Assembly: GCF_004210375.1 (NCBI RefSeq)
Contig: NC_134825.1
Span: forward strand, 6,262,001-6,326,000
DNA: 64,000 nucleotides
Reading direction: 5' to 3'
From: Tachypleus tridentatus
Taxonomy: Eukaryota > Arthropoda > Merostomata > Xiphosura > Limulidae
Shown here piece after piece: positions 9,956 through 61,689 of the stretch (its first letter is position 1; the number at the start of each line of letters is the position of its first letter). The notes under the pieces are model-generated. The model was not told the origin of the DNA and did not search any database. It worked only from the letters and a program-made list of their open reading frames with translations. A program made the translations under genes and the position numbers.

Positions 9956-11964
9956 TAATAATAATAATAATAATAATAAATTTATTAAGCAATAAATTAG
10001 ACACAAAAAATCAAATATCAATATAAAACCATCAACAAAGAGTTAACTCGTCCTGTGATGGTTAAACACATAATAAAGTAAAATCAAAACTTACAAAATC
10101 AATATAAAGTTCCCAGAATATTATCATCAGTATTTAAGATCCATTGTTTTAAGTATTTCTTTTGATTAACACGATTAATAGAAGATCTTATACTATAATG
10201 AATAAAATTATGAATACGAGGTGCCAAATAAAGATATTGATGAAGTGTAACTGTTTTACGTGGTGTGGGTACATTAATTGGAAAAAAAGATTGAAGTCGT
10301 GTAAAATATGAAGTGACTTTAAAAGGCCTATTAAAAGAAACATGCAATGTAGATAAAGCTAAAAAATATAAATAAAGTTTATCATATGAAAGAGGGGAGT
10401 TAAATTTACTGAAATCGGTATCAAGCCTATGAGTAAAATAAGAGAGAAAACACTTTTTGCAACTTGTGAATAGGAATTAAAAAGTCTTATATGTGCCACC
10501 CCAAATTGAAATACAATATTGTAAGAAAGATTGAAAGAGAGCATAATATACACTTAACAAAATATGATAAGGAGCACAATGACTAAGTTCAAAAATTAGC
10601 ATAGAACTATATTTTAATTTATTAACTAAAGAATTAATATGAAATTGCCAATTTAATTTTCGATCTAAGATAATTCCTAAATATTTAACAGAGGAAACTT
10701 GAGTCAATTTGGGACACTTACAATTAGGGTAAGTATAACAATCACTAGAATGATAAAAAATAGAAGGAAAAGCTGGAATGACACCATAAAGGTTAAACTG
10801 AAGAAGAAAAGATTTAGATATATTTAAGGATAAGTCATTACAGAAAAGCCAATTTTAATTTTATTAAGATCACTAGAAATAATGGCTTCATTAATTAGAT
10901 TTGGCTTACTATAGACAACAGCAATATCATCGGCATAGGCTTGGATATCTCCAAAAACTGTTGGTAAAGAATATCATTTATATAAATGAGAAATAATAAA
11001 GGGCCCAGAACAGAACCTTGTGGTACTCCAACATTAATTGTAAGCCAATCACTATAATTATTATGGATACAAACCGATTGCTTTCTATTGTGAAAGTAAG
11101 AAAAAAACCAATCAAAAAACAATGCCTCTAAAACCATAATAAGATAATTTATTTAACAATATTTTATGATTAACAGAATCAAAAGCTTTGGCTAAGTCAA
11201 GAAAAACAGCAATTGGATGAAGATCAGAATCCAAAGCTTCTGTAATACTTCCCACAAGTTTAGCAACAGCAACCTCCGTTCCAAGCCCAGGCCGAAAGCC
11301 AAATTGAGAAGGAGACAAAACTGAATGTCTATCAAGAAATGATAAAATTCTAATCTTCATAGATTTTTCAAATAGTTTAGAGAAATGTATTAATAAGGAA
11401 ATAGGTCTATAATTCGTAAAATCAGAAATATTACCAGATTTATAAATAGGAATGACCAATGATAACTTTAAAGCATTAGGAAACTTCCTTGAGTAAAAGA
11501 TAAATTAATTAAAAAAAGTCAAAATTGGTGCAAAAGATTAGCATTAGCTTTCAAAATCTTAACCGAAACACCATCTACACCATTAGAAGCTGAATTTGAT
11601 AAGGAGAAAATATTATTCATAGTTTCAGATACAGTAACAGGATATAGATAACAAGAAGAAGAAGGAGCAGGAGGCATGCCCTGAGAACAAAATTTAGGAT
11701 TGGAGCAAGTAGATTTAGCAACATTAACAAAAAAATAATTCAAATCAGATAAATCAGTAGTACCAAAATTACAAAATTTCTTTTTTTTTTTTTTAACATC
11801 AATAATAGAGTTAACAATATTCCAATTCTGTTTAATAGTTTTAGCATTCTTAAACAGGTTATGATAATAAGTCCATTTAGTCTTACGGGTCAAGCTAACA
11901 ACATAATTCCTTAAACACTTAAATCTAATCTTTAGATAAATATCATCAGAAAATTGATGTACAA
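9956..11964 (-). mobile_element. 5'-truncated non-LTR retrotransposon (LINE)
   Basis: The minus strand encodes a reverse transcriptase in pieces. Around 11.4 kb is [19 protein letters not shown]. Motif A is [14 protein letters not shown] near 11.2 kb. Motif B is [20 protein letters not shown] near 11.0 kb. The catalytic YADD ([13 protein letters not shown], near 10.9 kb) lies in another frame, so the ORF is shifted between motifs B and C. Thumb-like sequence (SVKYLGIILDRKLNW) follows near 10.7 kb. The 3' end is a (TAA)n tract next to the left target duplication. The upstream part, with any endonuclease domain, is missing, which is a typical 5' truncation. The motifs suit the Jockey/CR1 group; I cannot place the clade. 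The element inserted into SINE sequence. Confidence 0.92.
10895..11459 (-). pseudogene. Reverse transcriptase domain of the LINE, frameshifted
   Basis: This is the palm region of the LINE reverse transcriptase, which copies element RNA into DNA at the target. Fingers (NYRPISLL), motif A (FLDLAKAFD, catalytic Asp) and motif B ([12 protein letters not shown]) lie in two overlapping minus-strand frames. The YADD motif is present in a third reading. At least two frame changes mean no functional protein could be made from this copy. Confidence 0.85.
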
Positions 11965-13527: not shown

Positions 13528-14191
13528 GATTGCATGAAATGCATAACAAACAAGGAAAGCTTTCATGCATAGATTCTGTAATTGAAATACAATGTATCAA
13601 TTGCCAGGTGTAGGATCTTCAACAAGGAGTGATGTGTAATAAAATTGTAATGGAACCCACTGATCAAGCATTTTATCCAAAGTTTGCTTACTGTCTAACC
13701 AAGAACAATCATTTAATGTATTTTACAGCCTAAAAATAATTAAAGTATCCATAGAAACAAAACAGGAATAGTTGTATATACACTATCGCTTTGACAATAA
13801 AATTCCATGGACATATTTCTTTTATCATAGGTGAAATGAATGACTAACATCATTGCATTTTTTTTTTGTTAGTATAAAAGTAACTCAGTTTCTTATAGCT
13901 ACATTGAATATTGCAAATGAGGATATTGTCTAATCAAACAGTCTTAGTAGTTCAATTTGCACAAGTGGGTACATATACAATACCTATTGTAGTCTCAAAA
14001 CCATCATTGCATTAAACTGCACACACACTTCCATCTGTTTATATCAAATCTTTCATCTGTGATTACTGACAAAGTTGTATCTCTTTGCTTTTCTGCCAAC
14101 ACATCATTAAAAAATGGTGAAACATTCTGTTTAACAAAACTAAAAACTTTAAAGTATCCACTATTGGCTTAAAAGGAATGAGCTTTCTACT

Positions 14192-14305
14192 TTGTCTCAC
14201 AGTGGTATAATGGTACTTCTGTCGAATTATACCGCTAAAAAAATAGGTTCCGATACCCGTGGTGAGCAGAGCACATATTTAGCTTTGTGTTTAACAACAA
14301 ATAAC
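14192..14305 (+). mobile_element. tRNA-derived SINE (family 2), fragment
   Basis: This is a different head and tail from family 1: GTGGTATAATGGTACTTCTG, a B-box-like GGTTCCGATACCCGTGGTG, then GCAGAGCACATATTTAGC and an ACAAATAACAA tail. A second copy lies near 57.9 kb. Confidence 0.6.
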
Positions 14306-17300
14306 AACATCAACAGTAACAGCTTTCTAGTTCATTTGGGAAGGAATATGGAATATCATTTTGTACTATAAATATAAGCATGTGTACTTCTGCTTGAAAT
14401 ATCTTGTTAAGCCTGATACTAAATTCAGTAAGCTTCTTACTTCTGCTTGTTCTTACAGTTACATTCAATATTTAAATCTATATAATATTCTCATTTTCAT
14501 AACAAAATGCAACTAAAGTATTACAGAAACTGCAAAAAGCAATCACATGTGCTTAGTAGTTTTAATCAGGTTTTGAAAACCTCTATCCATGATATTTGTA
14601 AGACTAAGCATATTTTGACTTCTTTACTCTTTGTTTCTTGATAGATTAACAGCTCTATCATTTGAAACCATTAGAAATAAATTGTAAAGTATTCTACATT
14701 TCAATTTTGCAGGAAATTTAATTTAAAACTTTTATTTATTATCAGTTTATCTGAACTTTTATTACAAATATTGTTTGTCAATTAACAGTGGTATGTACAA
14801 ATTACTATAATGCTTAATCCAATGTAATTTTCACCTTCTGATTCTGAAGAAAATCATATATTTCAAAGTAAATAAAACTGTTGGTAAATTAGGCTTGTCA
14901 AGTAAAATAAACTGTAAAACTCAGGAGAAACAGTAACCTTGTAATATGTCGTAATATGTCAGTTATCAGCATAAACTTTCACTAGCTTGTATCATAAAGG
15001 AACTCAAAATACGATACGTAATGATAATGGTGTATATGGTCTTCTTTCATTGACACGTTCTTTTAAACCATATGGTCATGTCATCTATAAACTGGTCATG
15101 TGCCAAAAGTTCACCATTATACGAAGAACATGAGGGTAAGATGACTAAGCAAGTCTTTCTAAATTTTTCATAAATACGCCTATAGTCTTTATTCCATACC
15201 CTGTTCCAGAACTTTCCTCTGGATAATTCTTTCTGTTTCAATACTCCAAACACATGGTGACTGCTAAAGTTTACTAGTTGTCATGGCTCTCAGCTCTAAT
15301 GTTACTCTGTAGTTAAAAACATAATTTTTAAATGAACAGCTTTCTGTTTGTTATTCACTGTTTGGCCCATTTACCCTAGAAATTACTTCAGGCTCACTTA
15401 AATTCTGATAGTACCTTGCCATCATAATATTTTGGTTTCTTTATTGGCTGATTTTAAACTAGCTACCTGATGCGTGCAACTGGAGCTGGAAATGTCAGGC
15501 TGAAGCAATCCAGGAAGCTCCTTCAGTTACAAGTGTAAATCAAATAAGCTATGTTCTACACCTTTTAGCAGATGAAATTCATAGCTAGAATACCTGAGAT
15601 GATGTAAAAAGAGGAGGCGACTAGTTTGCTCTTTACATTTAATAATTCGTTTCTTGGTTGTATCTGCCATTATCTGTCTGTCAGGAAATCTCTTTGTCTG
15701 ACATTACCACATCACTACATAATTTGACTTTTTCCTATTTATAAGAATGATGTAATTTGAAACTTTCTTGTGGATTTTTACTACATAAGGTAACCCAGCT
15801 CTTTTGTTTTTATATTTCTATTAAGAACAGAGCCTCATGCAAGTCTATTATTACATATTACCTGATACTTTCTTGTTTCTGTTCAAACAATATCTTATTT
15901 CAGTTTAAAACTAGGTTTTACTGCATGACATTATTTAACTTCTGTTTAAAACAAGGATTCCCATACAGGTTTTATTATTATCTGATATTTTCTTGTTTCT
16001 GTTTAAACAATACAGCGTGCTGATTACTACTACACAGTGTAACCATTTCTGTTTAGAACAGAATGAAACAGATATTTATCTTTAAAAATCACAAGTGAAT
16101 TTAAGAAAAGACACAAGTAATCATAACACTCAAAATGAACATCACAAAAACCACATTTATTGCTGTTATCTATGTGGTTCACTGTTCTTGGCAAGTAAAA
16201 GCAGAGCAAAAAATCATCCCTTGTAATAAAAACTGATTTTGTAAACAACAGGGTGAAATTAAAATAAATATTGGTTCATGTAAACCCGTTCAGCATATAC
16301 AAAAGTGTAAGATTTTATTATACCATACTACCAAACCAATGTTTTTGTACATCAGTTTCACAATACCCACCAAATACATAATGGTAGAGTAACAGTGTAT
16401 ATAAAGGAAAACAATTCACATCGATTAAAATGAGTGACAACCAGTAAAAATGTAATAATATTATACACTTGGACATACTACTACAGCTAATAGCAAGTCT
16501 CAATATCAGTAGTATTACAGCAAATATTAGGACCATACACTGAAAGATGAACTTTGAAACTATATTTATGCTGGCTTATCACACACCTTTGTTTTTGATA
16601 ACATTAACTGCAATAGTTGCACATTTCTGTAGAACACACTCAAGAAAGAACAATGAACTAAGAGTCACTACTCTAAGTTTTAAAATGAAATACAAGTTAT
16701 ATTTCAGTTTTGATGAAATGTTCATTTATCAAATGTTTAAGAACCAGGTAGAAATAAATAAAGCCTGTCCAAAAATGTGGATATTTTGAGGTCTGTATGT
16801 TAAGTTATCAAAGATGACGTAACAAATCGCAAACACACAGTATGGAAATACTAAGATGTATTAAAAAGAAACACTGTTAACCTTTAAAAAGTCACTAATA
16901 ATAAAGTCCAGCATTATTAAAAATATGAATAATAATGAAAACACAACTGTTAATAAGTCAAAGTTACAGTGGAACAGTCAAAACTGTTAGGTGTATAAAC
17001 AATGGTACTACAGTTACATATGGATCAATAAACTTTTATTACTGTAAATATATAATGAATTCTGTGATAAACACCACACATTATGAAAAACTCTAATTTT
17101 AAAACAATAACTACTAATTTAGTCACATAAATTATAATAGTATAATGCAGTTTTTTATTTATTTATAATCTGTAAATATTTAAATGTCTATTTAAGTGAC
17201 AACTGTCTATTTCTCCCTCAACATTTCAGTAAACACATACGTTCGCAGTTTAAGGTTTACTTCTAACAATTCTGTACTTTCATGAGTCAAATGATAACAT

Positions 17301-20154: not shown

Positions 20155-20309
20155 TCAAAAACCTTCGTCGCTAGATTCGTCACCAAAGTTATACTTAATT
20201 GGAGCACAGGAGCGCGTCGAAGAGATCTAGGAGCAGGGGCACTGCTGCATTTTATTTCAGGTTCATCACCATTATCATCACTGTCTGATTTAGCCTTTTT
20301 CTTCAGATC
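20155..20309 (-). CDS. Top2: Top2 last coding exon
   Basis: The exon follows an ACAACAG acceptor in phase 0 and starts DLKKKAKSDSDDNGDEPE. That frame runs on to a stop at 20148 with an unrelated tail (ending TLVTNLATKVFEQ). Shifting by one base near 20193-20205 gives PIKYNFGDESSDEGF and a stop at 20155, which closely matches the conserved C terminus of the family. Either the assembly has a small indel here or this allele has a changed end. I prefer the shifted reading. Confidence 0.8.
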
Positions 20310-23300
20310 CTGTTGTACGGAGAAGATAATTTCAATTAATTAAGTGGAGATCAGAATGAAGTTAAAATGAGCATATTTTAACAAATATAATTAATATTTC
20401 CAACATTACAACAGCAACCAGAAAATATTCACTTCTTATTTAACTGAAAACTCTTACTTGCTTACTCTGATACAATCAGTAGAAAATTCATAAGTTCACA
20501 CATTGTTTCACAAGAACAAGTAACATAACAATGTTGAATAAACAATTAATGTCATGAAACTAATCAACAAATTACAGCAGTGTTTTTGATTAATTCAAAG
20601 TTGTTTTGCTTAATTATTTGTTATTCGACTTGAAAAACTAGTAAACTAATAAAATTAGTATTTCCATTTAACATTGTTTTTGATTATTCCAAATCTCATT
20701 AATTATCTATCATGAAGTAACGATCTGGACAATTAATCGATTATCATATTCCACTAGCTGACAAACTTTAACAATGGATTTTTGATTATTCCGAACCTCA
20801 TTAATTATCTATCATGAAGTAACGATCTGGACAATTAATCAATTATGATATTCCACTAGCTGACAAACTTTAACAGTGAGTTACAAAACTTAAGCAAGAA
20901 TTTTCTGTGAATATTTCTGTCTGGCTGGATTCTTAGTTCAGTCACACAGTGTTATTGAATAACATCTTAACTCACTAAAACAACAAATGAATGAATTTAT
21001 AATTTTAGTATTAAGAAAACTGTATAACAATCTAAGAAGCTCTTGGTGATTCTGGCATTTTATCATATGTATGTTTAGCTTTAGAAATCAGAGACACTTG
21101 TCAATTACAGTAAAGGTCTAATTAATTATGAGCCTTAAATATCATTATTATTCAATATAAAAGACTAAAAATATACTGGAGTACAGGAAATTAATTTTAA
21201 GACTCATGCACAAACACAACAAATAACCCATTTCTAAGAACAATAAGACTTACAGCCAACCATGTCATTTCAAACTCAGAATTGGGCATTATATAGTATA
21301 ATAAATAATTCACACAGTTTTAACACTTATGATGGCTTCAGTACATGCTGGGCAACTGAGAATAGTTCTTAAACATTTAATAAGCTGATGAATTAATTAA
21401 AAGGCAAACATAATTCACTAATGACCGTAAATAAACATTTTTCCTTAATCTAATAAAAATTTACTTTTTTAGGACGCTTTGCTGGTTTTGCAGTAGATTC
21501 TCTTTTCTTCCTCTTTTCTCCACCTGCAGTTGTAGGTTTTTTAGATGGAGCACGAGACTTCTTAACCTCAGGAATAAATTCATTGTCTGAGCCATCAGAT
21601 CTATCCTCCTGCTGTTTCACTACTGATACAATAAACAAGAGCTTTATCTTAACAGATCTATCCCCCTTGTGTTTCACTACTGATACAATAAACAAGAGCT
21701 TTATCTTAACAGATCTATCCCCCTTGTGTTTCACTACTGATACAATAAACAAGAGCTTTATCTTAACAGATCTATCCCCCTTGTGTTTCACTACTGATAC
21801 AATAAACAAAAGTTTTATCTTAACAGATCTATCCCCCTTGTGTTTCACTACTGATACAATAAACAAAGTTTTATCTTAACAGATCTATCCCCCTTGTGTT
21901 TCACTACTGATACAATAAACAAGAGCTTTATCTTAACAGATCTATCCCCCTTGTGTTTCACTACTGATACAATAAACAAAAGTTTTATCTTAACAGATCT
22001 ATCCCCCTTGTGTTTCACTACTGATACAATAAACAAAAGCTTTATCTTAACAGATCTATCCCCCTTGTGTTTCACTACTGATACAATAAACAAGAGCTTT
22101 ATCTTAACAGATCTATCCCCCTTGTGTTTCACAACTGATACAATAAACAAGAGCTTTATCTTAACAGATCTATCCCCCTTGTGTTTCACAACTGATACAA
22201 TAAACAAGAGCTTTATCTTAACAGATCTATCCCTCTTGTGTTTCACTACTGATACAATAAACAAGAGCTTTATCTTAACAGATCTATCCCCCTTGTGTTT
22301 CACTACTGATACAATAAACAAGAGCTTTATCTTAACAGATCTATCCCCCTTGTGTTTCACAACTGATACAATAAACAAGAGCTTTATCTTAACAGATCTA
22401 TCCCTCTTGTGTTTCACTACTGATACAATAAACAAGAGCTTTATCTTAACAGATCTATCCCCCTTGTGTTTCACTACTGATACAATAAACAAGAGCTTTA
22501 TCTTAACAGATCTATCCCCCTTGTGTTTCACTACTGATACAATAAACAAGAGCTTTATCTTAACAGATCTATCCCCCTTGTGTTTCACTACTGATACAAT
22601 AAACAAGAGCTTTATCTTAACAGATCTGTCCCCCTTGTGTTTCACTACTGATACAATAAACAAGAGCTTTATCTTAACAGATCTATCCCCCTTGTGTTTC
22701 ACTACTGATACAATAAACAAGAGCTTTATCTTAACAGATCTATCCCCCTTGTGTTTCACTACTGATACAATAAACAAGAGCTTTATCTTAACAGATCTAT
22801 CCCCCTTGTGTTTCACTACTGATACAATAAACAAAAGTTTTATCTTAACAGATCTATCCCCCTTGTGTTTCACTACTGATACAATAAACAAGAGCTTTAT
22901 CTTAACAGATCTATCCCCCTTGTGTTTCACTACTGATACAATAAACAAGAGCTTTATCTTAACAGATCTATCCCCCTTGTGTTTCACTACTGATACAATA
23001 AACAAGAGCTTTATCTTAACAGATCTATCCCCCTTGTGTTTCACTACTGATACAATAAACAAGAGCTTTATCTTAACAGATCTATCCCCCTTGTGTTTCA
23101 CTACTGATACAATAAACAAGAGCTTTATCTTAACAGATCTATCCCCCTTGTGTTTCACTACTGATACAATAAACAAGAGCTTTATCTTAACAGATCTATC
23201 CCCCTTGTGTTTCACTACTGATACAATAAACAAAAGTTTTATCTTAACAGATCTATCCCCCTTGTGTTTCACTACTGATACAATAAACAAGAGCTTTATC

Positions 23301-26300
23301 TTAACAGATCTATCCCCCTTGTGTTTCACTACTGATACAATAAACAAGAGCTTTATCTTAACAGATCTATCCCCCTTGTGTTTCACTACTGATACAATAA
23401 ACAAGAGCTTTATCTTAACAGATCTATCCCCCTTGTGTTTCACTACTGATACAATAAACAAGAGTTTTATCTTAACAGATCTATCCCCCTTGTGTTTCAC
23501 TACTGATACAATAAACAAGAGCTTTATCTTAACAGATCTATCCCCCTTGTGTTTCACTACTGATACAATAAACAAGAGCTTTATCTTAACAGATCTATCC
23601 CCCTTGTGTTTCACTACTGATACAATAAACAAGAGCTTTATCTTAACAGATCTATCCCCCTTGTGTTTCACTACTGATACAATAAACAAAAGTTTTATCT
23701 TAACAGATCTATCCCCCTTGTGTTTCACTACTGATACAATAAACAAAAGTTTTATCTTAACAGATCTATCCCCCTTGTGTTTCACTACTGATACAATAAA
23801 CAAGAGCTTTATCTTAACAGATCCATCCCCCTTGTGTTTCACTACTGATACAATAAACAAAAGTTTTATCTTAACAGATCTATCCCCCTTGTGTTTCACT
23901 ACTGATACAATAAACAAAAGTTTTATCTTAACAGATCTATCCCCCTTGTGTTTCACTACTGATACAATAAACAAGAGCTTTATCTTAACAGATCTATCCC
24001 CCTTGTGTTTCACTACTGATACAATAAACAAGAGCTTTATCTGAACAGATCTATCCCCCTTGTGTTTCACTACTGATACAATAAACAAGAGCTTTATCTT
24101 AACAGATCTATCCCCCATGTGTTTCACTACTGATACAATAAACAAGAGCTTTATCTTAACAGATCTGTCCCCCTTGTGTTTCACTACTGATACAATAAAC
24201 AAGAGCTTTATCTTAACAGATCTATCCCCCTTGTGTTTCACTACTGATACAATAAACAAGAGCTTTATCTTAACAGATCTATCCCCCTTGTGTTTCACTA
24301 CTGATACAATAAACAAAAGCTTTATCTTAACAGATCTATCCCCCTTGTGTTTCACTACTGATACAATAAACAAAAGTTTTATCTTAACAGATCTATCCCC
24401 CTTGTGTTTCACTACTGATACAATAAACAAAAGTTTTATCTTAACAGATCTATCCCCCTTGTGTTTCACTACTGATACAATAAACAAGAGCTTTATCTTA
24501 ACAGATCTATCCCCCTTGTTTCACTACTGATACAATAAACAAAAGTTTTATCTTAACAGATCTATCCCCCTTGTGTTTCACTACTGATACAATAAACAAG
24601 AGCTTTATCTTAACAGATCTATCCCCCTTGTGTTTCACTACTAATACAATAAACAAAGTTTTATCTTAACAGATCTATCCCCCTTGTGTTTCACTACTGA
24701 TACAATAAACAAGAGCTTTATCTTAACAGATCTATCCCCCTTGTGTTTCACTACTGATACAATAAACAAGAGCTTTATCTTAACAGATCTATCCCCCTTG
24801 TGTTTCACTACTGATACAATAAACAAGAGCTTTATCTTAACAGATCTATCCCCCTTGTGTTTCACTACTGATACAATAAACAAAATTTTATCTTAACAGA
24901 TCTATCCCCTTGTGTTTCACTACTGATACAATAAACAAGAGCTTTATCTTAACAGATCTATCCCCTTGTGTTTCACTACTGATACAATAAACAAGAGCTT
25001 TATCTTAACAGATCTATCCCCCTTGTGTTTCACTACTGATACAATAAACAAGAGCTTTATCTTAACAGATCTATCCCCCTTGTGTTTCACTACTGATACA
25101 ATAAACAAAAGTTTTATCTTAACAGATCTATCCCCCTTGTGTTTCCTACTGATACAATAAACAAGAGCTTTATCTTAACAGATCTATCCCCCTTGTGTTT
25201 CACTACTGATACAATAAACAAGAGCTTTATCTTAACAGATCTATCCCCCTTGTGTTTCACTACTGATACAATAAACAAGAGCTTTATCTTAACAGATCTA
25301 TCCCCCTTGTGTTTCACTACTGATACAATAAACAAGAGTTTTATCTTAACAGATCTATCCCCCTTGTGTTTCACTACTGATACAATAAACAAGAGCTTTA
25401 TCTTAACAGATCTATCCCCCTTGTGTTTCACTACTGATACAATAAACAAGAGCTTTATCTTAACAGATCTATCCCCCTTGTGTTTCACTACTGATACAAT
25501 AAACAAAAGTTTTATCTTAACAGATCTATCCCCCTTGTGTTTCACTACTGATACAATAAACAAAAGTTTTATCTTAACAGATCTATCCCCCTTGTGTTTC
25601 ACTACTGATACAATAAACAAGAGCTTTATCTTAACAGATCCATCCCCCTTGTGTTTCACTACTGATACAATAAACAAAAGTTTTATCTTAACAGATCTAT
25701 CCCCCTTGTGTTTCACTACTGATGCAATAAACAAAAGTTTTATCTTAACAGATCTATCCCCCTTGTGTTTCACTACTGATACAATAAACAAGAGCTTTAT
25801 CTTAACAGATCTATCCCCTTGTGTTTCACTACTGATACAATAAACAAGAGCTTTATCTTAACAGATCTATCCCCCTTGTGTTTCACTACTGATACAATAA
25901 ACAAGAGCTTTATCTGAACAGATCTATCCCCCTTGTGTTTCACTACTGATACAATAAACAAGAGCTTTATCTTAACAGATCTATCCCCCTTGTGTTTCAC
26001 TACTGATACAATAAACAAAAGTTTTATCTTAACAGATCTATCCCCCTTGTGTTTCACTACTGATACAATAAACAAAAGTTTTATCTTAACAGATCTATCC
26101 CCCTTGTGTTTCACTACTGATACAATAAACAAGAGCTTTATCTTAACAGATCTATCCCCCTTGTGTTTCACTACTGATACAATAAACAAAAGTTTTATCT
26201 TAACAGATCTATCCCCCTTGTGTTTCACTACTGATACAATAAACAAAAGTTTTATCTTAACAGATCTATCCCCCTTGTGTTTCACTACTGATACAATAAA

Positions 26301-29300
26301 CAAGAGCTTTATCTTAACAGATCTATCCCCCTTGTGTTTCACTACTGATACAATGAAACAAGAGCTTTATCTTAACAGATCTATCCCCCTTGTGTTTCAC
26401 TACTGATACAATAAACAAGAGCTTTATCTTAACAGATCTATCCCCCTTGTGTTTCACTACTGATACAATAAACAAGAGCTTTATCTTAACAGATCTATCC
26501 CCCTTGTGTTTCACTACTGATACAATAAACAAGAGCTTTATCTTAACAGATCTATCCCCCTTGTGTTTCACTACTGATACAATAAACAAGAGCTTTATCT
26601 TAACAGATCTATCCCCCTTGTGTTTCACTACTGATACAATAAACAAAAGCTTTATCTTAACAGATCTATCCCCCTTGTGTTTCACTACTGATACAATAAA
26701 CAAAAGTTTTATCTTAACAGATCTATCCCCCTTGTGTTTCACTACTGATACAATAAACAAAGTTTTATCTTAACAGATCTATCCCCCTTGTGTTTCACTA
26801 CTGATACAATAAACAAGAGCTTTATCTTAACAGATCTATCCCCCTTGTGTTTCACTACTGATACAATAAACAAAAGTTTTATCTTAACAGATCTATCCCC
26901 CTTGTGTTTCACTACTGATACAATAAACAAGAGCTTTATCTTAACAGATCTATCCCCCTTGTGTTTCACTACTAATACAATAAACAAAAGTTTTATCTTA
27001 ACAGATCTATCCCCCTTGTGTTTCACTACTGATACAATAAACAAGAGCTTTATCTTAACAGATCTATCCCCCTTGTGTTTCACTACTGATACAATAAACA
27101 AGAGCTTTATCTTAACAGATCTATCCCCCTTGTGTTTCACTACTGATACAATAAACAAAAGTTTTATCTTAACAGATCTATCCCCCTTGTGTTTCACTAC
27201 TGATACAATAAACAAGAGCTTTATCTTAACAGATCTATCCCCTTGTGTTTCACTACTGATACAATAAACAAGAGCTTTATCTTAACAGATCTATCCCCCT
27301 TGTGTTTCACTACTGATACAATAAACAAGAGCTTTATCTTAACAGATCTATCCCCCTTGTGTTTCACTACTGATACAATAAACAAAAGTTTTATCTTAAC
27401 AGATCTATCCCCCTTGTGTTTCCTACTGATACAATAAACAAGAGCTTTATCTTAACAGATCTATCCCCCTTGTGTTTCACTACTGATACAATAAACAAGA
27501 GCTTTATCTTAACAGATCTATCCCCCTTGTGTTTCACTACTGATACAATAAACAAGAGCTTTATCTTAACAGATCTATCCCCCTTGTGTTTCACTACTGA
27601 TACAATAAACAAGAGCTTTATCTTAACAGATCTATCCCCCTTGTGTTTCACTACTGATACAATAAACAAGAGTTTTATCTTAACAGATCTATCCCCCTTG
27701 TGTTTCACTACTGATACAATAAACAAGAGCTTTATCTTAACAGATCTATCCCCCTTGTGTTTCACTACTGATACAATAAACAAGAGCTTTATCTTAACAG
27801 ATCTATCCCCCTTGTGTTTCACTACTGATACAATAAACAAGAGCTTTATCTTAACAGATCTATCCCCCTTGTGTTTCACTACTGATACAATAAACAAGAG
27901 CTTTATCTTAACAGATCTATCCCCCTTGTGTTTCACTACTGATACAATAAACAAGAGCTTTATCTTAACAGATCTATCCCCCTTGTGTTTCACTACTGAT
28001 ACAATAAACAAGAGCTTTATCTTAACAGATCTATCCCCCTTGTGTTTCACTACTGATACAATAAACAAGAGCTTTATCTTAACAGATCTATCCCCCTTGT
28101 GTTTCACTACTGATACAATAAACAAGAGCTTTATCTTAACAGATCTATCCCCCTTGTGTTTCACTACTGATACAATAAACAAGAGCTTTATCTTAACAGA
28201 TCTATCCCCCTTGTGTTTCACTACTGATACAATAAACAAGAGCTTTATCTTAACAGATCTATCCCCCTTGTGTTTCACTACTGATACAATAAACAAGAGC
28301 TTTATCTTAACAGATCTATCCCCCTTGTGTTTCACTACTGATACAATAAACAAGAGCTTTATCTTAACAGATCTATCCCCCTTGTGTTTCACTACTGATA
28401 CAATAAACAAAAGTTTTATCTTAACAGATCTATCCCCCTTGTGTTTCACTACTGATACAATAAACAAGAGCTTTATCTTAACAGATCTATCCCCCTTGTG
28501 TTTCACTACTGATACAATAAACAAGAGTTTTATCTTAACAGATCTATCCCCCTTGTGTTTCACTACTGATACAATAAACAAGAGCTTTATCTTAACAGAT
28601 CTATCCCCCTTGTGTTTCACTACTGATACAATAAACAAGAGCTTTATCTTAACAGATCTATCCCCCTTGTGTTTCACTACTGATACAATAAACAAAAGTT
28701 TTATCTTAACAGATCTATCCCCCTTGTGTTTCACTACTGATACAATAAACAAGAGCTTTATCTTAACAGATCTATCCCCCTTGTGTTTCACTACTGATAC
28801 AATAAACAAGAGCTTTATCTTAACAGATCTATCCCCCTTGTGTTTCACTACTGATACAATAAACAAGAGCTTTATCTTAACAGATCTATCCCCCTTGTGT
28901 TTCACTACTGATACAATAAACAAAAGTTTTATCTTAACAGATCTATCCCCCTTGTGTTTCCTACTGATACAATAAACAAGAGCTTTATCTTAACAGATCT
29001 ATCCCCCTTGTGTTTCACTACTGATACAATAAACAAGAGCTTTATCTTAACAGATCTATCCCCCTTGTGTTTCACTACTGATACAATAAACAAGAGCTTT
29101 ATCTTAACAGATCTATCCCCCTTGTGTTTCACTACTGATACAATAAACAAGAGCTTTATCTTAACAGATCTATCCCCCTTGTGTTTCACTACTGATACAA
29201 TAAACAAGAGTTTTATCTTAACAGATCTATCCCCCTTGTGTTTCACTACTGATACAATAAACAAGAGCTTTATCTTAACAGATCTATCCCCCTTGTGTTT

Positions 29301-32300
29301 CACTACTGATACAATAAACAAGAGCTTTATCTTAACAGATCTATCCCCCTTGTGTTTCACTACTGATACAATAAACAAGAGCTTTATCTTAACAGATCTA
29401 TCCCCCTTGTGTTTCACTACTGATACAATAAACAAGAGCTTTATCTTAACAGATCTATCCCCCTTTTGTTTCACTACTGATACAATAAACAAGAGCTTTA
29501 TCTTAACAGATCTATCCCCCTTGTGTTTCACTACTGATACAATAAACAAGAGCTTTATCTTAACAGATCTAACCCCCTTGTGTTTCACTACTGATACAAT
29601 AAACAAGAGCTTTATCTTAACAGATCTATCCCCCTTGTGTTTCACTACTGATACAATAAACAAGAGCTTTATCTTAACAGATCTATCCCCCTTGTGTTTC
29701 ACTACTGATACAATAAACAAGAGCTTTATCTTAACAGATCTATCCCCCTTGTGTTTCACTACTGATACAATAAACAAGAGCTTTATCTTAACAGATCTAT
29801 CCCCCTTGTGTTTCACTACTGATACAATAAACAAGAGCTTTATCTTAACAGATCTATCCCCCTTGTGTTTCACTACTGATACAATAAACAAGAGCTTTAT
29901 CTTAACAGATCTATCCCCCTTGTGTTTCACTACTGATACAATAAACAAAAGTTTTATCTTAACAGATCTATCCCCCTTGTGTTTCACTACTGATACAATA
30001 AACAAGAGCTTTATCTTAACAGATCTATCCCCCTTGTGTTTCACTACTGATACAATAAACAAGAGCTTTATCTTAACAGATCTATCCCCCTTGTGTTTCA
30101 CTACTGATACAATAAACAAAAGTTTTATCTTAACAGATCTATCCCCCTTGTGTTTCACTACTGATACAATAAACAAAAGTTTTATCTTAACAGATCTATC
30201 CCCCTTGTGTTTCACTACTGATACAATAAACAAGAGCTTTATCTTAACAGATCCATCCCCCTTGTGTTTCACTACTGATACAATAAACAAAAGTTTTATC
30301 TTAACAGATCTATCCCCCTTGTGTTTCACTACTGATACAATAAACAAGAGCTTTATCTCACAAATGTATCTTCTTCCTGCTTAACAGATTTATCACTAGT
30401 TAGAAAAAAACAAAAAAATTTCATCAAAAAGAAATGTATTGTGAAAAATACTAGAACTGTAAAGTCAGCTTAAAAATACTAGAAGTGTAAGAGGGGTGGA
30501 GAAGATTACTTTAAAAGCCTGAAGTAAAAACAGACTATTTTAACACACACACATACATATTAATGAAGTAAAAACAGACTATTTTAACACACACACATAC
30601 ATTAATGAAGTAAAAACAGACTATTATAATACATACACATACATATTAGTGAAGTAAAAACAGACTATTATAATACATACACATATTAATGAAGTAAAAA
30701 CAGACTATTATAAAACATACACATATACATATTAATGAAGTAAAAAGAGACTATTCTAATACATACACGTATTAATGAAGTAAAAACAGACTATTCTAAT
30801 ACATACACATATTAATGAAGTAAAAACAGACTATTATAATACATACACATATACATATTAATGAAGTAAAAAGAGACTATTATAATACATACACATATTA
30901 ATGAAGTAAAAACAGACTATTATAATACATACACATATTAATGAAGTAAAAACAGACTATTATAATACACACACATATACATATTAATGAAGTAAAAAGA
31001 GACTATTATAATACATACACATATTAGTGAAGTAAAAACAGACTATTATAATACATACACATACACATATAAATGATAAATTACTTTACAGTTAAAATAC
31101 CTTTGGTTTCTTGTTGTTTACTGGCTCTCTCATCGTCTGTGCTGGAACCACTATCAACTGGTTTTGCGGAGGGAATGACTGATGGTTCAACGTTGAATGA
31201 AGAGACAGACTCATCAGGTTTCTTATCTGGAGAGGATCCTCCCAATAAAGAATCAAAGAGCCCATCTGTTGCAACATAAGAAGATATATACATAATTCTC
31301 TTTGCAAGTGAATGTGATCATATTTTCTTCCAACATGCAAAAGGAGAACTACTGCCTTCAATCAGCAGAAACACAAAAGAATTAGGTTATCAACAGGGTT
31401 TTTAAGAACATATTTCTATCTTTTGGTACCATCATGTAGTCCCCCAAAATATAAATATGGATTTTAAATAACTAATCTTAATGGTCAAATAATTATAAAA
31501 TTAAAAAATGTTTAATTACACAGTTTAAAAATACACTATTATCATTGATTTAAGCAATCAGTTGAAGTGTTCTAGTTATTTTCAAGTATTTCAGTTAACA
31601 TACAGTTTATTAAACTTCCTATACCCTCTTGTTGTCAAACATATCATGTTAGAGAAGAGTCATAATCCCTGCTTTCTTTGATAGTACCTTGAAACCTCTT
31701 TAAAAGAAAAACAGGTCAAATTTGAGAAACCAACAACTTCAGATAACCTTACGAAATTAAGTCTGCCATCAGTGATGATGAGAAAACCCACTTGTAGAGA
31801 AAAATATATATGTAAAAACCAATAGCTAAACACATGTTGAAGGGGGTTGTGTGACTGAGTGTAGGAATGTAGAGGGTGTGCTTAGATGTTTGATTATATT
31901 TATTAATATAGGTATAAAGGTGTTTCATGTGGTCAGCTATTGGTCAGTTACCTCTTTCTTTCTCTGTGAACCTGACGATGACTGAAGAAGGTCAAAACAT
32001 TGTTCGCTTCTCTACAAAATCATTTTCTCAACCCAAACCAGCCATTTTTACACAAACAAGTCTGCCATGATAAGCCAATTTCAGAAAGCAAAACTTCAGC
32101 AAGTTACTTTTGGATTTAAAAATCAAATTATAAAAACATGAAAGTTCCCAAATTACATTTAACAAGTGAAACGACAACAATTTAATGCATTATTTCTCTA
32201 CTTCAACATACAGAAATTACTCTTTCAACTCTCTTGCTACTGGTAGGTCAAAGAGCATATGTCATGACCTTTTGGAAAGTTACATTCAAAATATAATTAA

Positions 32301-35300
32301 ACAATTTTATAAGAATAAAATTGGCATCAAAACAGTTAAAAAATTAAATATAATACAAGTTTTAAATTTTTAATTTTAGAAGAAGTATTTTTAAAAAACA
32401 ATCTTCTCTAGTATGTGAATCATCACTTCTGTCCTCTAGGCCTTTTTTCCTTCTCTAATCCATTTACTAAACCTATCTGAAGTAAAGGATTCAATATAAA
32501 TTACTTATTACAGCATACACATCACAATCAGTAGATAGCCTAATGTGGCTTAGCTATAGGAAATCACATCACATATGTATCACAAAGGCAAAGTCTAATT
32601 TGTCTAGTTTTCAAGAATATCTTTTATGGTGTCATAATCTGGAAAATTAAACCCACCTATCACAAATAGTTCTCTGTAACAGTTTACACTATATTATTTA
32701 TAATTGATAGAAAACAAAGTTTTAATATATCAAATTATTTTGTTTTCAATACAGTACTGTCTTTTTTCTTCTTCAGTCTGAAAATTTATCTTGTAGTGTT
32801 CGATTTGAAAAGCTTCAAAATTATTTTAAGATTTTTGCATCATAATCAGAAGGCCAGTTACATTATCATTTTGCTTTATGCATGTTATAATTCTCTGTTC
32901 TTAGGTGCATTATGCAAGTAAATAAAAATTATTCAGGATGCTTGTGCTATTAGTATAAAAAGTAGGATTAAATTTCACTGGGAACCAACAGGAAAAACAA
33001 AATATATATATGTATGTATGTTCCTTGTTTTTCATGTTTTTCTTTCTTTATTATTATAAAAATATTAAAAGTAAGAATTTGAAACATCTAAAGCTATATA
33101 AGGTTAGATTAGGTAAGAAAACTGAAGATAGTAATCATTTTTGACAAGATATGCTCGAGGACAGCTTGTGCATAAAGTCCTTCAATACATCAAGCTATGT
33201 GTCCACTAAGTAATTTACAGCTGATCAAGGGTAGATTAGTTAGTTCAAGTTCAAAGGCAATAAAACAAAAAAAAATTAGTTATAAACAGATATATACTGC
33301 TGCTACCAACTTAAAGCAATTCAAAATAAACAACTGTCCTTTCTAGCTACTATCTGTAGTCATTATAGGAACAAAAAATGTGTAATTCAGATTTATTCAT
33401 ATTTGCTTGTGGTGGTTACAAGGCTGATCAAGAATAGATACAATAAGAAATAAAATATACTCTTCAAAACAAGAAGCAAAAAGGATATTTTTGTTATTTT
33501 AAAGAGAAATATATGTAATAACGCTACAAGTTCAGAGTATGTGCTGTTACACGTGTTAAGGCACTGATTGTCAGACCAAAATGACAATAAAAGTTGTGCA
33601 CTTTGAAAATGGAGGAAAACATCGGATTTTTTCGCCAAAATGCACGCATGTCCAATAAATTTGATTGAGAGATCTGCATGTTCTGCAAGTGCAAAATCCC
33701 TATAAAGTGACGGTTTTCGGTTTCCATAGCTCAGTGTTAAGCCACCGACATGCAATACAGTTATGCCAAGACTGACTGAAGCACAACGCAACAACGCCAT
33801 TGGTCGCTTGGAAGCTGGCAAATCTCGATTAGATGTTGCCAGAGCTGTGAATGTCCACCAAAGCACCATCATAAGGCTATGGAATCGTCACCAACAACAT
33901 GGATCAACTCGTGACTGTCCACGATCTGGCAGACCTCGTGTCACCACGCCCCCACAAGATCGCAACATCCAGTTACGTCACCTTCAGGATAGGACCACCA
34001 CTGCGACGTCTACTGCCTCAACCATACCAGGGCTGTGTAGGATTTCCGATCAGACCGTACGCAACCGTCGACGAAATTCTTAGGCCCCATTTGCAGCCCA
34101 TCATGGAGAATGTCAACGACATTTTTCAACATGACAACGCATGTCCTCACACAGCCCGACTCACCACTGTCTTCTTGAGAAACCACAACATCAACATTCT
34201 TCCCTGGACCTCCAGGTCACCAGATTTAAACCCCATCGAACATCTTTAGGACGAATTGGACTGACGTCTGCGACGGCGACAACCTCAACTGCAGACTCTA
34301 CCTCAGCTTGCAGCAGCTTTGCAGGCTGAGTGGACAGCCATTCCACAGGATGTGATTCGTCATCTCATCGCTTCCATGGGCAGGAGATGCCAAGCAGTTA
34401 TTGATGCTCACGGGGCGCATACTCGTTGTTGACGTTGAGTGACGTTAAACGTCAACTAGTGAGCGTGGACTTTGCCTTTGCAGACTTTGGATGTTCAGCA
34501 GTGAATGTGCAAAGTTTCACACGTCATACAGAACTACCCGGAATAAACTTGTTAACAATTTGTCTCATATTTTGCCTTTTGTGTTTCTGTTTTTGAAGAG
34601 TATATAATGGTTTAATGAAAAAAACGTTTGACGTTTATTTAGGTTTGAGAGATTAAGCAAATGAGATTTAGACATTTTCAAATATAAAGAAATCTTTTTT
34701 ATCTTAACACGAATATTATTTTGCACTTGGAGCAGTCAACACTATAAACTTACTGATAAATTATTACTGGTATGTATGATAATTAATTTCATAATTACAT
34801 GTACTAATAACAACTCGTTAAAACTGTATTGCTTTGTCTTATTTCTAAACTACAAGGCTTTACCAAAATTATCAGGTTATTAATTTTGATTTTACATATT
34901 TCAATCTATCCTGTACAAATGTGTAATATTTCCACAGGGTATCACATAGTAATTATCAGGTTGACAATACAAATCAAGTCTCTGATTTAATTTTCATATG
35001 AAAGATGTCCCTTTATATTAAACATCTAATTTATTACTTTTTTCCTAGTTATTATGGCTTCTCCTCGTTTCTTACTTTCTTATCAATAAATTTATTTTTC
35101 TATTATTTCCTTCTTCATCTGCCTTGACTATCCTTAACCTTTATTATATTTATGCATTGCTTACAGTCCAGTTTGAATACTTTCTCTAGTTTTCTCACCT
35201 CCTATTTTACCAATTACTTTATTTCTTCCATTTCCTTCTTCAACAATTACATTTTACATTCTTCTCTTTCCATACACTACAAATCACTGTTACACCAATA

Positions 35301-54717: not shown

Positions 54718-55217
54718 NNNNNNNNNNNNNNNNNNNNNNNNNNNNNNNNNNNNNNNNNNNNNNNNNNNNNNNNNNNNNNNNNNNNNNNNNNNNNNNNNNN
54801 NNNNNNNNNNNNNNNNNNNNNNNNNNNNNNNNNNNNNNNNNNNNNNNNNNNNNNNNNNNNNNNNNNNNNNNNNNNNNNNNNNNNNNNNNNNNNNNNNNNN
54901 NNNNNNNNNNNNNNNNNNNNNNNNNNNNNNNNNNNNNNNNNNNNNNNNNNNNNNNNNNNNNNNNNNNNNNNNNNNNNNNNNNNNNNNNNNNNNNNNNNNN
55001 NNNNNNNNNNNNNNNNNNNNNNNNNNNNNNNNNNNNNNNNNNNNNNNNNNNNNNNNNNNNNNNNNNNNNNNNNNNNNNNNNNNNNNNNNNNNNNNNNNNN
55101 NNNNNNNNNNNNNNNNNNNNNNNNNNNNNNNNNNNNNNNNNNNNNNNNNNNNNNNNNNNNNNNNNNNNNNNNNNNNNNNNNNNNNNNNNNNNNNNNNNNN
55201 NNNNNNNNNNNNNNNNN
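54718..55217. other. Assembly gap of 500 N
   Basis: Exactly 500 unknown bases, a typical fixed-size scaffold placeholder, so the real distance is unknown. Top2 lies to the left and agrin to the right, both on the minus strand. Confidence 0.99.
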
Positions 55218-58400: not shown

Positions 58401-61400
58401 ATCGGGTAGTGACTAGTGAATTGTCAAACACAAAGTCTGAGTAAGAAAACCCATGAGGTTTTGAAACACAGAAGTTTATGACCTGTCAAACACCACAGAC
58501 TTGACAGTTAGTACTGAGAGCACAAAGCCGGTCGCATTTTATACCTGGAGTTAATAGGGCAAGTAATTATTATTAAAACATATATGTATGAAAATAACAC
58601 ATGTTAATTACCTCGCGGCCTGGCATGGCCAAGCGTGTTAAGGTGAGCGACTCTTAATCTGAGGGTCGCGGGTTCGCATCCCCGTCGCGTCAAACATGCT
58701 CGCCCTCCCAGCCGTGGGGGCGTTATAAAGTTACGGTCAATCCCACTATTCGTTGGTCAAAGAGTAGCCCAAGAGTTGGCGGTGGGTGGTGATGACTAGC
58801 TGCCTTCCTTCTAGTCTTACACTGCTAAATTAGGGATGGCTAGCACAGATAGCTCTCGAGTAGCTTTGTGCGAAATTCAAAAAACAAACAAACAAAAATT
58901 ACCTCGCGAAAAGGTTTTTCGTTGTTTTTTTTTATTCACGAAGTTCATCGCACAAAAAAAACAAAGGCTTTTGCAATAAAATAGCTATGAGGGACCGATT
59001 CTCCTTTGATGCCACCAAACCTTGAATATAATATGAAAAGATACTGTTACAAACGAACAAGTTTTATAATGTTTAATATTTTAAATAACAAACATTGAAA
59101 TATTCCAAAATACTATATTTATGTCAGGGAAATTTTTGTCGTTATCTTGACAAAATCGGATCGAATTTCTTGTGAAAAACTCACCTGCACAGAACTCTCT
59201 AGATACAGGTGTGGTTTCCTGCTGACTTTTACAAGCAGCTTCTCTCATAAGACATTCGTTATCGTACAAATGTCTATCAGAACCACACACAGGTTCTTTA
59301 TCTGTTGAACAGTGAAAGTCACAAACGCAATGGGGCAAACCACGAGAATCGAACTCGCATACTCCATCAAACTGACATAGTTTGTCTCCACAGGATCCGG
59401 AACCAAAATCTGGAACAATACACAGACTTTCTATCTGTTTACTGGAGTTCAAAACTTACAGTTGTTCTAATGTTCTCAAGTTTAGACTGAGGGTAGTGGC
59501 TATTTACCGAAGTAAAATTAATTTCAGGTAACTCGCTTTTTAGTTACCAAGTTTAGACCAAAGTCAAATGACGGGCTTCTCATTTCCAAGTTTAAACTTA
59601 TTCATCTTTTGTTGATATTTGAGGTTTACAACGTGATTAAAACCTAATAAACCAAAATCGAAACCTTGTAAATAATGTATGAGATAAGAAATAAAAGTGC
59701 AATTATTTTGCTATTTTGTGACGTGTAGCAAAAGATCTATGCGTAGCATATTCTATTTGTAATAACACATCTGTCATTACAAATTACACAGTCTCTTATG
59801 AAAACTTGTGAGAAAATATTTTAATTTAAATGTCCTGAAAGACGTCACGTGTTTTACACAATGGACCTTTTAAAGTAATTGAATTTGGGACTACTTTTAC
59901 GTTCTTGCTGCTTTGTGCACAAAAAAAACACAACATTTCTAACAAATGATGCATTGTCTTCTTGGAACTTACCAAAAAAATGCTATCTTTTTGAATGATA
60001 AACATTACTAAGCTCTTCTCAGTTTAATTGGGTCGTAATTACGCGTATTCTAAGGTTTATAAATATACATCAAATATTTATCTGATTTATTTTCTCCCCC
60101 ACACCCAAAAAATAATAAAGCAACAGAGATAAACGTCTTAATAAACCAGACAACTAGTGGAAAATAACTCACTCTGTTTGATTCCACAAGAAGACGAAAA
60201 AATAAAATGCTTTTGTAGCTTAAATCCTATGTACATTCGTAAGTTATTTATGGCCATTCTTGACCAATAACCATTATAGTGGTCTTGATGGAGTTTTAGT
60301 TAAAATTCCATCTATCTAATTGAAGCACGAAAGATAAATTTATGTGATCCGCACAGAGTGTCAGTTAAGATGACATCAGTAGGAGACAAAACACAATAGA
60401 TAACATTTTCTTCCACTATTTTGACATCAATTTATACTGTTGTTGTCCACTCATTCCTGATACACAAAAAAGTACCATAAACTGAGGTTCAATAAACGAA
60501 GTCAGTTGACGGTTGGAATCGTCATTTCATGTTCTCTGACCAGGAATTATATGCAGTTCTACTCCATAAAATGAAAGTTTACTTATTGAGATTGGAAATA
60601 AACTGATTTTTTGTTTTCTTTGGGTTATAATTTTCATTAGTATCGAAAACGTTTGTGATAAATATTAAGGGTTATGAATTTCACGACATATAATTCCGAA
60701 TTCCTCTCATAATAACTTACTACATTCAAATGTAGTTGTCTCACAAGTACAAAATCATAATTTACAACATTGTAATCTAGTTGTGTCACAAGTACAAAAT
60801 TATAATTTACAACATTGTAATCTAGTTGTGTCACAAGTCCAAAATTATAATTTACAACATTGTAATCTAGTTGTGTCGCAAGTACAAAACAAAAGTTTAC
60901 ATTATAATCTAGTTGTGTCACAAGTAGAAATCATAATTTACAACATTATAATCTAGTTGTGTCACAAGAAGAAATCATAATTTACAACATTATAATCTAG
61001 TTGTGTCACAAGAAGAAATCATAATTTACAACATTATAATATAGTTGTGTCACAAGAAGAAATCATAATTTACAACATTATAATCTAGTTGTGTCACAAG
61101 AAGAAATCATAATTTACAACATTATAATCTAGTTGTGTCACAAGAAGAAATCATAATTTACAACATTATAATCTAGTTGTGTCACAAGAAGAAATCATAA
61201 TTTACAACATTATAATCTAGTTGTGTCACAAGAAGAAATCATAATTTACAACATTATAATCTAGTTGTGTCACAAGTAGAAATCATAATTTACAACATTA
61301 TAATCTAATTGTGTCGCAAGTACAAAATCATATGCTAGATATATATTAAAACACATGATCGTGACTTATAGCACTCTTGTGTTTGTGTCACAGGTTCATC

Positions 61401-61623: not shown

Positions 61624-61689
61624 CTGGTGAATAACAAATTAACATTATAAAATATCCTTAAGATACATAACAAGTTTCTAAGAAAAATA

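Follow-up and report, generated by a model that had tools for sequence, protein, structure and literature searches.

A minisatellite that repeats a Top2 3' splice site in tandem in the genome of Tachypleus tridentatus

The Top2 locus and its two copies

The 64,000 bp stretch of Tachypleus tridentatus DNA analysed here (positions 6,262,001 to 6,326,000 of contig NC_134825.1, which is called C1 below; the whole stretch is "the window") carries the C-terminal exons of a Top2 gene on its minus strand, and one of the introns between them contains a 57-bp minisatellite whose unit spans the intron's own 3' splice site. The window copy of the array has 154 such acceptors, the last of which is the acceptor of a genuine 158 nt Top2 exon (Table 1). 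Coagulogen, a horseshoe-crab protein, has 19 matches (PF02035) in the genome, and the two pieces compared with PDB entry 1AOC, the T. tridentatus coagulogen, are identical to it (43 of 43 and 45 of 45); the COX1 on the 15,008 bp mitochondrial contig looks like that of an arthropod.

The window copy of the locus (copy A) aligns, inverted, to a second one at C1:8.04-8.08 Mb (copy B), with 195 substitutions in 42,251 aligned bases (0.46%) when the arrays are masked. The Top2 gene is in one piece in copy B. The alignment of the two copies stops at 54709, beside the 500-N gap of the window (54718-55217). The 5' half of the copy A gene is found at C1:7.50-7.52 Mb, about 1.2 Mb away, where the alignment starts directly after a 500-N gap. 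Gaps of this length are present at C1:7498310-7498809 and C1:8007344-8007843 as well as in the window, and the copy A gene is split at the window gap and the first of these two. This arrangement suggests that copies A and B are probably two haplotypes, the second one left unpurged; a recent duplication is a possible alternative.

The array-bearing gene is Top2 by homology, as the initial annotation had it. The Pfam family DNA_topoisoIV has 12 matches in the genome (one of them, C1:8030668, is under the family cut-off), and these include C1:8016076-8030916, which is upstream in the unbroken copy B, and a paralogue at C7:76093754-76098999, comparison with which recovered further Top2 exons. Six C-terminal peptides read in the window have 100% amino acid identity to copy B over their aligned lengths, which for the last exon is 29 of 35 residues. 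The peptide of the exon upstream of the array and its acceptor are found in copy B, where the stretch corresponding to 31050-31330 is identical, and the 158 nt exon has the same sequence in both copies. That exon is real, to judge from its splice phases, which agree, and from a homologous exon with identical phases (1 in, 0 out) in the C7 paralogue, where no tandem array lies across the acceptor. Without the 158 nt exon, a phase 1 donor would be spliced to a phase 0 acceptor and the frame would be lost, and Top2 therefore needs this exon.

Three smaller features of the Top2 genes were seen. The last exon has five clustered differences between copies A and B at 20215-20221, one of which is an indel, and the frame of the final residues is shifted in copy A; the end of this exon in copy B is the usual Top2-like one and resembles that of the C7 paralogue, and the copy A version is an allele or an assembly error. 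The C7 paralogue contains a minisatellite with 4.2 copies of a 53-bp unit, some 650 bp upstream of the homologous exon (14169-14389 of the examined stretch in gene orientation), and this unit includes an acceptor-like string, CCCTGTATCAGTAA, possibly by chance. Finally, reading frames at 33730-34329, in an intron of Top2, are fragments of what we take to be a Tc1/mariner-like transposase.

Table 1. Positions in the window of the C-terminal Top2 exons and of the repeats in the array-bearing intron
Feature	Position	Strand	Details
Last Top2 exon, start (DLKKKAKSDSDDNGDEPEIKCSSAPAPRS)	20221-20309	minus	acceptor CAACAG, phase 0
Genuine Top2 exon, 158 nt, VKQQEDRSDGSDNEFIPEVKKSRAPSKKPTTAGGEKRKKRESTAKPAKRPKK	21465-21622	minus	phase 1 in, phase 0 out; donor GTAAAT from 21464
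57-bp array	21596-30358	minus	Tandem Repeats Finder (TRF): period 57, 153.9 copies, 98% matches
Array unit		minus	intron 3' end of 30 nt, including acceptor TATCAG, and exon-start-like part of 27 nt, TAGTGAAACACAAGGGGGATAGATCTG; from TRF, unit split and acceptor strings
Host intron	21623-31100	minus	9478 bp in copy A; donor and acceptor phases agree; contains the 57-bp array and the 40-bp minisatellite
Upstream array edge	30333-30403	minus	strong T tract, CTAAC (30399-30403), TAG (ends 30396), then degenerate boundary-like sequence
Second intronic minisatellite	30520-31065	minus	period about 40 bp (86/126 higher order); TRF
Upstream Top2 C-terminal exon (...DGLFDSLLGG...ASKQQETK + G)	31101-31265	minus	ends phase 1; donor GTATTT from 31100

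Anatomy of the array

The copy A array was cut into units at the acceptor ATTGTATCAG, with one substitution tolerated, which gave 154 acceptors and 153 units. A length of exactly 57 bp is shared by 141 of the 153 units, while nine measure 56, two 55 and one 58 bp; because all of them fall within 55-58 bp, the split missed no acceptor. There are 21 sequence types among them, and 89 of the 153 match the commonest type exactly. Chance origin is no concern for 154 tandem copies. These figures, with the TRF copy number in Table 1, bear out the initial annotation, which had described about 150 copies of a 57-bp minisatellite built on the Top2 acceptor.

When the unit is read from its acceptor, the 30-nt intron part, TTAAGATAAAGCTCTTGTTTATTGTATCAG, follows the exon-like TAGTGAAACACAAGGGGGATAGATCTG. 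The first 27 nt of the genuine exon form the final unit of the array, and this exon start, TAGTGAAACAGCAGGAGGATAGATCTG, is the same as TAGTGAAACACAAGGGGGATAGATCTG at 24 of 27 positions. The unit does match, and cross, the exon boundary as had been claimed, and the genuine exon is the last unit, running on into Top2 coding sequence. The further claim that each unit is identical to the acceptor and exon start held in part: every acceptor retains its AG, in copy A (154 of 154) and in copy B (92 of 92), and the exon match is as given above, but the exact string CTCTTGTTTATTGTATCAGTAGT, through TAGT, is present at only 108 of the 154 copy A acceptors, most of the other 46 having CTTTTG instead of CTCTTG. 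Retention of the AG was considered as a signal of selection and rejected, since zero of 22 variants (57 columns) in the two AG columns is an outcome expected nearly half the time.

In the assembly the array has 154 acceptors in copy A and 92 in copy B, and its flanks are identical in the two. The order of unit variants is the same at both ends and different in the middle, a pattern that resembles the one seen in minisatellite alleles. The interior is homogenised (the 89 identical units above), the copy in the genuine exon is 3 positions off in both loci, and the upstream edge is degenerate. Alignment of that edge to the exon boundary scores 26, whereas simple shuffles average 15.7 (standard deviation 3.0) and only 12 in 2000 do as well; the edge resembles an old intron-exon boundary copy that has since decayed. 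The 40-bp minisatellite in the same intron stops 35 bp short of the donor, so this splice site is outside the repeat. Minisatellites are abundant in the window, for which TRF gives 26 rows, some of them one array listed more than once.

The 20-mer ATTGTATCAGTAGTGAAACA, which lies across the acceptor, has 232 exact matches in the genome, 145 in the window (copy A) and 87 in copy B. An introner or other mobile intron-like element was rejected as the source of the repeat, since all 232 exact matches, the only kind counted, are confined to the two copies of the Top2 locus.

Splice-site strength and reading frame

A small acceptor matrix was built from 15 other acceptors of Top2. With it the common array acceptor scores 1.45 and the second type 3.18, and the 15 other acceptors have a leave-one-out median of 1.3 (-6.6 to 6.9). 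Among 4482 background AGs, 8.1% score as high as the common type and 3.1% as high as the second, and the common-type acceptor has the top score among the 6 AGs of its unit. The array acceptors are thus locally ordinary Top2 acceptors, equivalent to the real ones, and in this local sense the equivalence asserted in the initial annotation stands.

The five GTs of the unit agree with 3-4 of 9 donor consensus positions, whereas both real donors that were checked agree with 6 of 9 (a simple match count, untrained); on this poor match, a mini-exon/mini-intron unit with GTTAAG as donor was rejected, as were repeated 5' splice sites of the IFI6 type. An RNA hairpin that hides the acceptors found no support in the unit types (z of -0.61 and -0.11; -1.40 in another register, 19 of 200 shuffles being as good), and at the genuine exon site the value is unconvincing (z -1.82, 11 of 200 shuffles as good). 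A search of the genome for a retrocopy of the spliced junction, which would be a fossil cDNA, gave 16 matches, each of them with 3 mismatches, and a reversed control gave 6; the matches are thus at chance level.

An open, in-frame exon would be reached from 5 of the 154 acceptors in copy A and from 28 of the 92 in copy B. Beyond the true acceptor, the nearest 4 upstream acceptors (A) or 27 (B) stay open and in frame, and the remainder, 149 of 154 in A and 64 of 92 in B, would shift the frame or run into stops. Units that depart from 57 bp number 12 of 153 in A and 6 of 91 in B. The 22 distinct variants are divided between the 27 exon-like columns (13) and the 30 intron columns (9), and seven indel entries among them represent about six events (one is a 2-base deletion), none of which is a multiple of three. 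The array therefore evolves as noncoding DNA in which the frame is unprotected, and this speaks against a wide spectrum of functional isoforms. A coding minisatellite that encodes a protein repeat was rejected on the same grounds, as the frame is not conserved across units.

Relatives of the array and its likely behaviour

Competition of more than one acceptor for one donor is familiar from NAGNAG and other tandem acceptors, which, unlike those of the Top2 array, are a few nucleotides apart, few in number and not part of a minisatellite. Two known arrays of splice sites are closer to it, the amphioxus "mirages", of which the Adh case was reportedly the original and came from Canestro et al. 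in 2002, and the splice-donor minisatellite of IFI6, said to have been described by Turri et al. in 1995 and presumably far smaller than the Top2 array.

Mirages have been reported in the amphioxus genes for Adh3, the globins BflGb6 and BflGb9, and troponin C, with PGBD5 as an imperfect similar case; regular splicing is reported to be undisturbed, the repeats are length-variable (two BflGb6 haplotypes have 6 and 3 units, respectively), somatic instability is reported for Adh3, and it has been proposed that new introns can arise from mirages (PMC3087553, PMC3902484). The Top2 array resembles them in that its unit spans the exon-intron boundary (that of BflGb6 is likewise made of an intron 3' end and a 5' part of an exon), that the authentic exon closes the cluster (the last acceptor, at 21623, opens the 158 nt exon), that its interior is homogenised and its edge copies excluded, and that its length differs between what are probably two haplotypes. 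It differs in its 154 and 92 acceptors, compared with the 6 and 3 units of BflGb6, in its 57 bp unit, compared with 150-160 bp in BflGb6 and 10-72 bp in Adh3, and in its host, a chelicerate and not a cephalochordate, and gene, Top2; it is also known here from genomic sequence alone. In human IFI6 (6-16) a minisatellite provides several splice donors, and its downstream repeat units serve as donors in mRNAs (PMC4526556; the 1995 study is also cited in PMC2572611); as in Top2 a minisatellite repeats the splice site at an exon edge, but donors are repeated there and acceptors in Top2. Human segmental duplications contain internal tandem repeats at exon edges, averaging four 30-bp units, for which both spliced and repeat-retaining forms are reported (PMC2812944). 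As in Top2, expansion of an exon-edge minisatellite modifies gene structure in these duplications; unlike the Top2 array, the repeats become exon or intron modifications (PMC2812944). The initial annotation knew of no described case of this scale. The open-licence literature on the subject, as available to us, did not yield a splice-site array as large as that of Top2, a comparison which leaves aside the largest Adh3 and IFI6 copy numbers, but boundary-repeating arrays as such are known from amphioxus (PMC3087553, PMC3902484), and a minisatellite with repeated splice donors from human IFI6 (PMC4526556). The kind of structure has thus been described, and the Top2 case is an extreme instance of this rare arrangement in a new lineage, at a size far above that of the globin mirages.

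We think it probable that the array is an unstable intronic mirage that is bypassed through exon definition, with nearby upstream acceptors used occasionally. It would have started with a tandem duplication that took in the 3' end of the intron and 27 nt from the start of the next Top2 exon, and its structure suggests that slippage or unequal exchange then amplified this to about 154 copies in A and 92 in B. The array would remain intronic, and most likely the spliceosome mainly takes the last acceptor, because only this one lies about 158 nt from a functional donor (21464) and beside real exon sequence. The last acceptor adjoins CAGCAGGAGGA, where array units have CACAAGGGGGA; that this difference might act as an enhancer versus a G-run is a guess. 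Occasional use of nearby upstream acceptors may add 19 residues per unit, and use of farther ones would lead to frameshifts and stop codons in mRNAs that should fall to nonsense-mediated decay. The mirage reading is favoured by the geometry of array and exon, the Top2 identity of the exon and its need in frame, the ordinary local strength of the array acceptors, the poor donor matches of the unit, the unprotected frame, the length variation with shared ends, and the amphioxus precedents, which are reported to leave regular splicing undisturbed and to be unstable in length.

Several observations weigh against this interpretation. The matrix rests on only 15 sites of a single gene, and the unit alone favours no acceptor, the last one having the same acceptor and upstream sequence as the others. 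The strongest acceptor-like AG between the donor and the array is the TAG of the upstream edge. With a score of 5.99 (measured in copy B, which has the same flank) it outranks the array sites and, by their leave-one-out scores, all but one of the 15 real acceptors; if used, it would lead into a stop (read by hand). A yTnAy branch-point motif is present 15-50 nt upstream of 0 of the 92 copy B acceptors, the genuine one included, compared with 10 of the 15 other Top2 acceptors, although the motif is weakly informative, since random positions match it at 65%. Finally, IFI6 shows that a splice-site minisatellite can be used to make isoforms (PMC4526556).

The last point bears on the possibility that the array makes a graded series of Top2 isoforms, in which several acceptors just upstream of the genuine one would add 19-residue repeats (VKHKGDRSVKIKLLFIVSV) to the C-terminal tail over an allele-dependent range. 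Array acceptors are as strong as real ones, the 57-bp unit is open in the exon frame, the nearest 4 (A) or 27 (B) extra units keep that frame, and repeated splice sites are used in IFI6 (PMC4526556); we nevertheless regard such isoforms as unlikely, since none of the roughly six indel events is a multiple of three, the added peptide has a hydrophobic stretch unlike the charged tail, and the amphioxus mirages are reported to be silent (PMC3087553, PMC3902484). Array length could instead tune the amount of functional Top2 mRNA, more decoys giving more mis-spliced, decayed transcripts, so that output differs between the 154- and 92-acceptor copies. The difference in copy number and the many acceptors that would give a frameshift or stop (149 of 154 and 64 of 92) speak for such tuning, but if decoys were costly, arrays of this length should have been purged from an essential gene, and the C7 paralogue may cover the function, so this idea is quite doubtful. 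Improbable, too, is a splicing rheostat of polymorphic length, in which the length of the array would determine how wide the set of in-frame tail isoforms is (5 versus 28) as well as what fraction of transcripts is decayed.

That the repeat was collapsed or invented during assembly might be suspected from the 500-N gap in the window, the split of the copy A gene and the clustered differences and frameshift in its last exon; the array occurs, however, in two distinct parts of C1, with different lengths, identical flanks and variant orders that match at both ends, and an artefact is very unlikely. Scarcely any weight can be given to a plain intronic minisatellite that overlaps the exon edge without effect on splicing. 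The region is rich in minisatellites, including the 40-bp one in the same intron, but the unit shares 24 of 27 positions with the start of the exon and crosses the boundary, so that the acceptor itself is repeated, and this alternative departs from the mirage reading solely in denying any use of the array acceptors.

Work on how one 3' splice site is chosen from several equal ones generally relies on reporters with few sites. Here one genome supplies 154 and 92 near-identical acceptors with a fixed donor, a fixed downstream exon and, as a contrast, a paralogous exon free of the array, and acceptor usage at this locus would directly separate scanning from exon definition. The array also adds a chelicerate to the amphioxus mirages, far above the size of the globin cases, and so bears on the gain of introns and exon edges. 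If the rheostat reading were true, an essential gene would contain a natural variable-length ladder of more than 100 3' splice sites that are equivalent to one another.

Other features of the window lie outside the array-bearing intron. A very long second minisatellite, which also has a 57-bp period but an unrelated unit, occupies 1-1181 according to TRF and seems to continue to the left, where self-similar alignments start at C1:6242001, 20 kb outside the window; it is found in copy B as well. About 2 kb at 9956-11964 are present in A and absent from B, and the reverse-transcriptase-like reading frames there suggest an insertion of what we take to be a non-LTR (long terminal repeat) retroelement. 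To the right of the N gap, minus-strand reading frames at 59081-61657, presumably Kazal/agrin-like, are perhaps not neighbours of Top2 in the real chromosome.

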